A stretch of 64,000 bases of DNA from a virus, in IMG/VR virus record IMGVR_UViG_3300032241_002336, positions 1-64,000 of that record; one strand, given 5' to 3'. Position numbers and translations under genes: made by a program. Positions 6,398 to 9,351 of the stretch are shown piece by piece (the first letter of the stretch is position 1; every line of letters begins with the position of its first letter). A model generated the notes under the pieces. The model ran no database searches. It was not told the origin of the DNA and saw only the letters and a list, made by a program, of their open reading frames with translations.

Positions 6398-6742
6398 TGG
6401 AGCAATTGGGAGTCGAACCCAAGTCTTAAGTATTCTTCAAAAGTTTTCTACATGTTTATTAGAGTTTTATAACCCTACAAATCTTTACAGCATTTTACTA
6501 TTACTGTGAATAGTCTACTATTTTTGATTCTTAGTATTGAATGTTCGTAGTTTACTACTATTACTTTATTAGGCTAAAGCAAGCTCTTCTTCGCTAACAG
6601 TTAATGTTGCTTCGTCAAGAAAATTTTTTGATACGATAAAATCGTTGTCATTTATTTTTTTAATAGCGAGATTTAAGTGCTTCCATCTAGCACTACATGC
6701 TTACGATTTACGACTATACCTAATCAAAACCAGTATTGCCCC
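6398..6742 (-). ncRNA. ssrA: tmRNA
   Basis: Both halves of the tRNA-like domain are present: 5' GGGGCAA pairs over 7 bp with 3' TTGCTCC (discriminator A), and the T arm is TTGGG-TTCGACT-CCCAA. The 5' part keeps the tmRNA signature ACTGGTTTTGAT and the AAGCATG element usual in Bacteroidota tmRNAs. A tag frame ends ...SEEELALA at tandem stops TAA TAA (6566-6571). The resume codon is not certain. By position it is GAC or a nearby upstream codon, so the tag is 26-32 residues, far longer than the usual ~10. tmRNA rescues stalled ribosomes and marks peptides for proteolysis; ClpP is encoded next door. Confidence 0.9.
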
Positions 6743-6810
6743 ATATTTTAAAGAACTAAAATTTATTTATATAAATACATCATTCTGACATAAAAGTTCA
6801 TAATGCTATA

Positions 6811-7631: not shown

Positions 7632-7859
7632 TCATATTTTATATTTTATATCCTCAATGCTACGACCATCTGTAATGTCGCCATATAAATCAATTGTAGG
7701 TATATCCATTTGACTTTTTAAAATATCTATTGCTTTTTCTATATCATAAGCAACTACAGGCCCTAAATTAATACGTTCCGCCATACCAACAATGGCATCA
7801 TCTAAACCATCATATATTATAGCCTCTGGATTTATTTCAAAAATTTCTTCTCTTGTCAT
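7632..7859 (-). CDS. Small acidic phage protein of unknown function
   Basis: 75 residues. It begins MTREEIFEINPEAIIYDGLD and continues with DAIVGMAERINLGPVVAYD, a type of small protein I associate with many phages but which has no known function. Its ATG overlaps the stop of the preceding gene (TAATG), indicating translational coupling. No catalytic motif is seen. Confidence 0.65.
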   Translation of the reverse strand: MTREEIFEINPEAIIYDGLDDAIVGMAERINLGPVVAYDIEKAIDILKSQMDIPTIDLYGDITDGRSIEDIKYKI

Positions 7860-8284
7860 TAATTATTATTTTCAGCATCTTCTTGAGCTTCTTCGGAAAA
7901 TAGTTCTTTTATTAAAGTCTTTAAATTTAAACATTTTTCAGCACCATATTTCAATAATAATAAACTAAAAGTAGAAAAATCTGGATTAATTAATGTTAAT
8001 TTATCCTTTTCAGGATCAAAATAAATTCTCGCAACATATTCTTCAACAATCATATTTTTTTGTTCGGCTTCTAGTTTCTCAAAAATAGCCTCATTCAATA
8101 GAATAATAACATCTTCATTAGTCATATGTTTAAGAATATCTGAGGCCTTACTGACTTTACAGATTTCTTTTAATCTATTGCAACCCAATATTTTAACGTT
8201 TAAATCACGTAATGAGTCAATTTGTGAAATAAAATTAATAAATAGTTCTTCGTGATCTTCAAATACTTCATGATATTTTGCCAT
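7859..8284 (-). CDS. Unknown acidic protein
   Basis: 141 residues from ATG at 8284 (MAKYHEVFEDHEELF). A longer reading from a TTG at 8302 is unlikely, because that codon lies inside the -7 element of the promoter at 8300-8330. The protein is mostly helical with a Leu-rich middle and an acidic C-terminal tail (EAQEDAENNN). No known family recognised. It overlaps the next gene by the TAATG junction. Confidence 0.65.
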   Translation of the reverse strand: MAKYHEVFEDHEELFINFISQIDSLRDLNVKILGCNRLKEICKVSKASDILKHMTNEDVIILLNEAIFEKLEAEQKNMIVEEYVARIYFDPEKDKLTLINPDFSTFSLLLLKYGAEKCLNLKTLIKELFSEEAQEDAENNN

Positions 8285-8299
8285 AATATAAATTTTTGT

Positions 8300-8330
8300 C
8301 AAATATACACAATACTATCTTAACTAACAA
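8300..8330 (-). promoter_or_regulatory. Bacteroidota-type promoter inside the dnaJ 3' end
   Basis: Minus-strand TTG, 20 nt, TATATTTG. The -33 element lies within the last codons of dnaJ and the -7 element just upstream of the ATG at 8284. It would give a short leader of about 10 nt and drives the gene at 7859-8284 and the clpP run. Confidence 0.7.
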
Positions 8331-9351
8331 TTTTTTTATTAATTTTTTTTAATTCTTCAATTAAATGTCTTTCCTCGTCAGTAATTTTATTTGGTATATA
8401 TAAATCAAGATTTATAAGCATATCGCCCCTATTATTTGTATTAAGCTGTTTCATGCCTTTTTCTGGTATCTTTAAAGTATCACCAACTTTACTATATTCA
8501 GGTATTTGAATTCTTATTTTACCACCTTCTATTGTAGGTATTTCAACTTTATCACCCAATATTAATTGCGGATAGGTAAGTTTTATATTTATTTTTAAAT
8601 CATTATTACTTCTCACAAATTTATCATTTGGCACTTCTAATATTGCCATAATTAAATCACCAACACCACCATTTTTCACAGCATGACCCTTATTACTCAA
8701 TGCTAAAGTCATATTTTCAACAACACCGCTTGGAATAGTTACATCTACTATTTCATCAATAGAAACAACACCCCCACCATTACATATATTACAAATATTT
8801 TCATATGTAAATCCTTCACCATTACATACATTACATTGACTTGAATTATGTATCTGTCCAATGGGTGTATTTATTATTTGCGTAATTATACCACTACCAT
8901 TACATGTATTACATGATTTACTTCCAGTCCCACCCTTACCACTACAATTACTGCAGTGTGTATTTCTTTTATATTTAAATTTTTTATTTACACCATTAAA
9001 GATTTCTTCAAGGGTTAATTTAACGGTTAAATTTAAATTGGCACCATTTCTTGGCGTAGAATTTCTAGCAAATGGATTAAAGCCACTTCTATTGAAAAAA
9101 TCTTGAAACATATCAAACGGATTTCCTGATGGTCCTTGTCTTGGGATATTATGACCATGAATATCATACTGTTTTCTTTTTTCATCGTCAGACAGTATTT
9201 CATATGCTTCAGCTATTTCCTTAAAAATATTTTCATCACCTCCTTTATCAGGATGATGGGCAAGTGCTTTTTTACGATAAGCTTTTTTTATCTCATCCTG
9301 AGTTGCGGTTTTTGGGACTTCCAATACTTCATAATAATCTCTTTTAGACAT
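8320..9351 (-). CDS. dnaJ: DnaJ (Hsp40) co-chaperone
   Basis: 343 residues. Residues 1-70 are a J domain with the essential HPD at 33-35 and the usual [20 protein letters not shown] start. A Gly/Phe-rich linker follows ([18 protein letters not shown]). Four CxxCxGxG zinc motifs lie at ~133-190 ([32 protein letters not shown]), then the C-terminal substrate-binding beta domains. This is a full type I DnaJ. It stimulates DnaK, and no DnaK is visible, so it probably works with the host's. It is divergent from the plus-strand gene at 9401. Confidence 0.93.

Follow-up and report, generated by a model that had tools for sequence, protein, structure and literature searches.

The commonest length for a tmRNA-encoded peptide tag is 10 amino acids (PMC11915505), and phage tmRNAs have been reported from mycobacteriophages and from Bacillus phage G (PMC4131195). 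Longer or altered tags have also been described. The mycobacteriophage ET08, which stands for the Bxz1 group in our comparison, carries a tmRNA with a 25-residue tag (ATDTDATVTDAEIEAFFAEEAAALV), and Mycoplasma, which lacks ClpXP, has tags ending in AFA (PMC3985003); an extended Mycoplasma tag is held to co-evolve with the Lon protease (Ge and Karzai 2009, as cited in PMC3985003). Genes for both tmRNA and SmpB are on record from huge phages (Al-Shayeb et al. 2020, PMC7162821), and jumbo phages encode ClpP together with DnaJ-type (J-domain) co-chaperones, in an article that mentions tmRNA and SmpB zero times (PMC7824862). The long Bxz1-group tags, the long Mycoplasma tags with Lon and the pairing of tmRNA with SmpB in huge phages were thus known before. 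What is new here is a conserved family of phage tags, class A, linked to a Clp protease of the phage; we found neither the family nor its link with clpP described in the open-access library searched.

The locus lies in a 64,000-nucleotide stretch (the window; positions 1 to 64,000) of IMG/VR record IMGVR_UViG_3300032241_002336, an 81,655-base virus record with tailed-phage genes, for example for a baseplate wedge protein. Like ET08 it has a phage tmRNA with a long tag, but the ET08 tag is unrelated in sequence to class A and the host is different. It shares with the extended Mycoplasma system a long tag, an altered end and a proposed co-evolution with a protease, whereas the Mycoplasma system is bacterial, lacks ClpXP and has Lon as partner, the linked protease here being Clp. 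As in the huge phages, parts of trans-translation are encoded by large phages; the passages of PMC7162821 that were consulted describe neither tag sequences, nor a clpP linkage, nor a shared module. The jumbo phages offer a parallel for ClpP and the J-domain co-chaperones.

Results

Identification and structure of the tmRNA

A sequence-only reading of the window had proposed a phage tmRNA at 6398-6742, and both ARAGORN and the Rfam covariance model RF00023 confirm it, the latter matching 6395-6742 with 71.6 bits (cut-off 47, E 7e-26). The RNA has the features of that family, with a tRNA-like domain containing G3.U70, a T-arm and helix H2, and follows its layout of pseudoknot 1 (PK1), about 12 nt, a resume codon and a reading frame closed by a stop (Table 1). 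Across 25 aligned tmRNA sequences the T-arm and H2 covary, the stem-1 pairs of PK1 are maintained through compensatory changes, and the third acceptor pair is G.U (G3.U70) in every one (25/25), which is the mark of alanine tRNAs. The 3' CCA is absent from the DNA, where CTG stands instead; a CCA-adding enzyme encoded by the phage could complete the 3' end.

Table 1. Features of the tmRNA locus and associated genes in the window.
Feature	Position	Strand	Detail or basis
tRNA nucleotidyltransferase (CCA-adding)	757..1911	-	phrog_2244, E 1e-54
tmRNA gene (ssrA)	6397..6742	-	ARAGORN and Rfam RF00023
tmRNA ends	6742; 6398	-	begins with GGGG at the 5' end; discriminator base is A
Tandem stops	6566..6571	-	UAA UAA
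Tag reading frame, 26 codons	6572..6649	-	DNDFIVSKNFLDEATLTVSEEELALA; resume GAC at 6649-6647
H5-like hairpin within the tag frame	6584..6622	-	about codons 10-22; RNAalifold and synonymous shuffles
Pseudoknot 1	6662..6694	-	stems AGUGCU/AGCACU and GAUGG/CUAUU; Rfam alignment, stem 2 assigned by eye
Leader, boxA-like, immediately 5' of tmRNA	6743..6758	-	TAGTTCTTTAAAATAT; GTTCTT recurrence in relatives
ClpP peptidase, 233 aa	6844..7545	-	PF00574, 198.5 bits; PDB ClpPs, E 6e-48
Short conserved gene between clpP and metallopeptidase	7635..7862	-	phmmer match to the neighbour in L316
Phage metallopeptidase	7859..8302	-	PF18894
DnaJ co-chaperone	8320..9351	-	PF00226/PF01556/PF00684

The closest cellular counterparts are the tmRNAs of Bacteroidota, 80 of which were sampled from GTDB genome contigs. 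They are alike in the PK1 motif (GCATGyAGTG...CACTTAAATCTC), in the spacing of the resume codon and in the tRNA-like domain, but their tags are of 9-10 residues, typically GENNYALAA or GETNYALAA; that host tags end in YALAA, as had been assumed at the outset, is true for most of the 80. Bacteroidota-type tmRNAs also turned up in L100 and L155, contigs whose titles give Lachnospiraceae and Roseburia respectively, and these two bins may be mixed.

The GTTCTT element of the leader recurs no more than 25 nt upstream of the tmRNA in 36 of 42 phage tmRNAs. Its boxA-like form (A/C)GTTCTTTAA stands directly before the tmRNA in the window and among L320-L363, a GTTCTTT leader is common to two Flavobacteriales-like host tmRNAs (L118 and L139; 2 of 63 host loci), and diverged phage clades have a promoter-like box TATATTTG. 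Leader and promoter together are the basis of a tentative Flavobacteriales lead for the host. The surroundings of the window tmRNA also include a peptidyl-tRNA hydrolase-like (PTH2) gene at 3600-3899 on the minus strand. On the same strand, at 3983-4054, is a suppressor-like tRNA with a CUA anticodon, labelled Pyl by ARAGORN and found as well in L316 and L317. The stop-codon reassignment at which this tRNA hints is not supported: TAG still looks like an ordinary stop in this phage, closing 6 of the 46 ORFs, and a Gln reading gains little.

The resume codon and the length of the tag

From GAC, at RNA position 94, the frame translates to 26 residues, ends in ELALA and runs into UAA UAA, in agreement with the start and end first read from the letters. 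The GAC stands 12 nt past PK1 (the final base of whose second stem is 6662), a spacing equal to that of Bacteroidota tmRNAs, and 18 nt past the PK1 motif TTAAATCTC, the host resume codon being found at 18-19 nt in the 80 tmRNAs. In the covariance-model alignment, the check proposed with the original reading, GAC AAC GA falls opposite GCA AAC GA, the consensus of the resume region. Relatives keep the tag frame from GAC onward, and in many of them an in-frame UGA occurs two codons 5' of this GAC. The tag is therefore long and unlike that of the host, at 26 residues against 9-10.

ARAGORN itself calls a 9-residue tag, VSEEELALA, from RNA position 145, with GTT as the resume codon. This call puts the resume codon close to the stop, the outcome that the sequence-only reading had set against its own proposal, and it is contradicted by comparison: such a codon would stand 63 nt past PK1, and the Rfam model, the host spacing and the frame preserved in relatives all favour GAC. 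Because these comparative data place the resume codon at GAC, we regard the short-tag start as mis-set and untenable, and give it practically no weight. ARAGORN can thus return a false short tag, or overlook tmRNAs of this long-tag type; those of relatives L003-L005 went undetected by it.

A different proposal is that the RNA acts as a decoy which titrates host SmpB or ribosomes and tags nothing, as has been suggested for the tmRNA-like RNA of phage DS6A. Such a phage inhibitor is on record (PMC4131195, PMC11915505), but here, unlike in DS6A, conservation extends over the full mRNA-like domain with its resume codon, reading frame and stops, and a decoy role is very unlikely.

A conserved family of long tags

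The cleanest sample was obtained by scanning viral contigs by ClpP alone, the tag not being a criterion, which yielded 80 loci. A profile search found a tmRNA in 42 of these, always on the same strand as clpP and downstream of it, at a distance of 82-1999 nt. The tag is 25-26 residues long in all 41 of the 42 that are readable from the resume codon; the remaining one (L354) is too diverged there to fix the start, although an in-frame SENFLDNCTVGVLDGELALA is visible. The class A consensus is xNxFx[VI][SD][EK]NFL...[GR]E[LV]AxA, and divergent clades have GNSFDIDENFLNTASVEVVEGEVALA or GNEFDIDKNFLDTATLGVGMGEVALA as tags. Seventeen further phage tmRNAs were recovered with patterns free of the tag (PK1, 3' half, D-arm), and all 17 have a long tag, while a loose PK1 pattern was discarded (71 of its 74 matches were chance). 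An earlier set gathered by a tag-codon pattern was rich, but residues 1-9 had guided its selection and what it shows of conservation at those codons is circular; it was superseded by the ClpP-guided set. The EEELALA pattern did not occur beyond the window, and neither blastn with the tmRNA nor tblastn with the tag gave a match among named phages. The idea that the tag copies the end of a phage protein was also rejected: none of 347 ORFs from the window and related stretches has a C-terminus or a core motif that matches it.

Within the ClpP-guided set, the first 13 codons give a pN/pS of 0.35 when read in the tag frame, compared with 1.14 and 2.51 for the two alternative frames; in-frame stops are absent from these codons, and variation at their third positions is in excess (p 0.001 on permuting columns, a value to be taken as indicative, not exact, because the sequences are related). 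For the last seven tag codons alone the third-position excess is not significant (p 0.15). Two stretches of the tag are conserved: the core xNxFx[VI][SD][EK]NFL towards the N-terminus and, at the C-terminus, E[LV]AxA, which is unlike the YALAA of the host.

Degradation tags of the ssrA type have a small, hydrophobic C-terminus that an AAA+ protease recognises. Class A tags end mostly in AVA, ALA or AFA, some in AVV or ELV, and none in LAA. These endings would suit a protective or sorting tag, a weak degron that lets chains escape host ClpXP while ribosomes are recycled, so that the phage gains rescue alone. We consider this improbable: the C-termini remain small and hydrophobic like known degrons, and clpP is retained beside the tmRNA, with a Clp ATPase in the same genomes.

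A hairpin within the tag-coding region

RNAalifold detects an H5-like hairpin within the tag frame, in which UUCC (codons 10-11) and GGAG (about codons 20-21) form an outer stem that shows compensatory changes and is followed by an inner hairpin. Compared with synonymous shuffles of the same stretch, the hairpin region has the greater stability in 38 of the 39 sequences (mean z -1.52 versus -0.38 for codons 1-10), that of the window itself being weak. Part of the conservation of the FL and GE codons arises because the helix constrains those bases; the FxVSEN-like core lies largely outside the main helix.

This hairpin, its stability relative to the shuffles and its covarying outer stem argue for the main rival to our preferred reading, in which host ClpXP degrades the tagged chains as usual and reads no more than their final residues (A[VLF]A). 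The N-terminal extension would then be neutral or structural, a by-product of the stops having shifted downstream past H5, retained because the hairpin is built from the same bases. The ordinary short tags of some sister phages point the same way. Against it, codons 1-9, mostly off the main helix, hold the FxVSEN-like residues while their third positions vary, and the length of 25-26 residues is constant across diverse phages; we judge it rather unlikely.

The clpP-linked module and its partner genes

The ClpP neighbour noticed in the original reading is borne out, the gene lying 101 nt from the tmRNA and encoding a triad that looks intact by alignment (motifs GMAASMG for Ser, MLHQ for His and QRDLW for Asp). 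It also matches phrog_94 (prohead protease, a type encoded alongside capsid and portal genes that processes the head); the window gene sits with dnaJ and the tmRNA, and its match to cellular ClpP spans the whole core. Its best identity to nine Bacteroidota genomes is 38-44%. The order dnaJ, metallopeptidase, short gene, clpP, tmRNA is common to the window and its relatives. Within 4 kb, 41 of the 42 tmRNA-bearing loci have the metallopeptidase, 40 the short gene and 34 dnaJ, versus 5, 1 and 5, respectively, for the 38 ClpP loci without such a tmRNA nearby, and clpP is present in 33 of the 33 records carrying a class A tag.

In sister phages whose ClpP belongs to this family, the tmRNA lies away from clpP and specifies tags of 21 residues (GNTFAKMSALGLMREASVVAA and similar) or the ordinary tag GNAEYAMAA; ClpP therefore does not fix the tag length, which counts against a strict pairing of the two. 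Lak phages of Prevotella have an apparent 10-residue tag, DDEIDFRMAA, and a 636-kb record (LR756504) one of about 24 residues, DNVNSFEQSILNELFAPVEMAVAA, both read by eye. Since lengths differ among the sister phages, Lak, LR756504 and ET08, phage tag length is variable, and the class A tag is one stable solution. A second phage tmRNA family (L402-L406 and L409) has 21-residue tags of the form G[NK]TFAKMxALGLxREASVVAA and is not beside clpP. In a 484-kb phage (L421; LR756508.1, 92434-92880) a possible 36-residue tag, GVNNADYESAGFTAEDFAQMDGESLYHGSERKPAAV, can be read where ARAGORN gives a short one.

Eleven of the larger related records have the baseplate protein of the window at 46-71% identity and are therefore phages of one kind. 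A ClpC-like ATPase is encoded in all eight of the related records above 230 kb that were searched, with an MGF/MGL tripeptide, read by eye, at the expected ClpP-binding loop. SmpB is encoded in five related records and missing from several large ones, so host SmpB may serve there; the record containing the window, an 81.7-kb fragment, yielded neither SmpB nor a Clp ATPase. Larger relatives also encode an RNase R-like RNB protein. Near the tmRNA in three records (L316, 10875-11276; L317, 4011-4412; L318, 3209-3610) is a gene for a 133-residue RF-1/GGQ-domain protein, possibly a second ribosome-rescue factor. An apparent intein interrupts one ClpC-like gene (G027; L315, 2261-7594) at the second Walker A motif.

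Discussion

The RNA, its resume site, the long tag, the conservation of that tag and its linkage to ClpP are established by observation. The best explanation, to which we assign a probability of about 0.5, is a functional phage tmRNA with a two-part tag read by the phage Clp or an adaptor. The tmRNA would be of Bacteroidota descent and presumably charged with alanine; it would enter ribosomes stalled on broken mRNA, where translation would resume at GAC and add Ala + DNDFIVSKNFLDEATLTVSEEELALA to the unfinished chain. The C-terminal E[LV]AxA would act as the degron, and the N-terminal core, given its conservation and linkage, would most likely be a second site contacted by phage Clp or by an adaptor. 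Chains rescued by the phage would then be destroyed by its own machine during infection. The wider set of dnaJ, metallopeptidase, clpP, tmRNA and ClpC-like ATPase, joined in some phages by SmpB, RNase R and the GGQ protein, would form a proteostasis module.

Redirection of tagged chains to the phage protease is plausible from the sequences. The more specific proposal, that in a clade of large Bacteroidota phages the phage's own tmRNA writes a two-part tag of 25-26 residues which its own ClpC-ClpP or adaptor reads in preference to the host's, as a private code for a parallel disposal pathway, is possible but tentative. Should the phage in fact redirect rescued chains to its own machine, viruses would have a naturally orthogonal pair of degron and protease, and a further case, after Mycoplasma with Lon, in which tag and protease changed in concert. 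The class A tag and the phage protease offer a direct test of why phages carry tmRNA, and the related large phages, which keep this arrangement, may have a separate means of their own for disposing of unfinished proteins.
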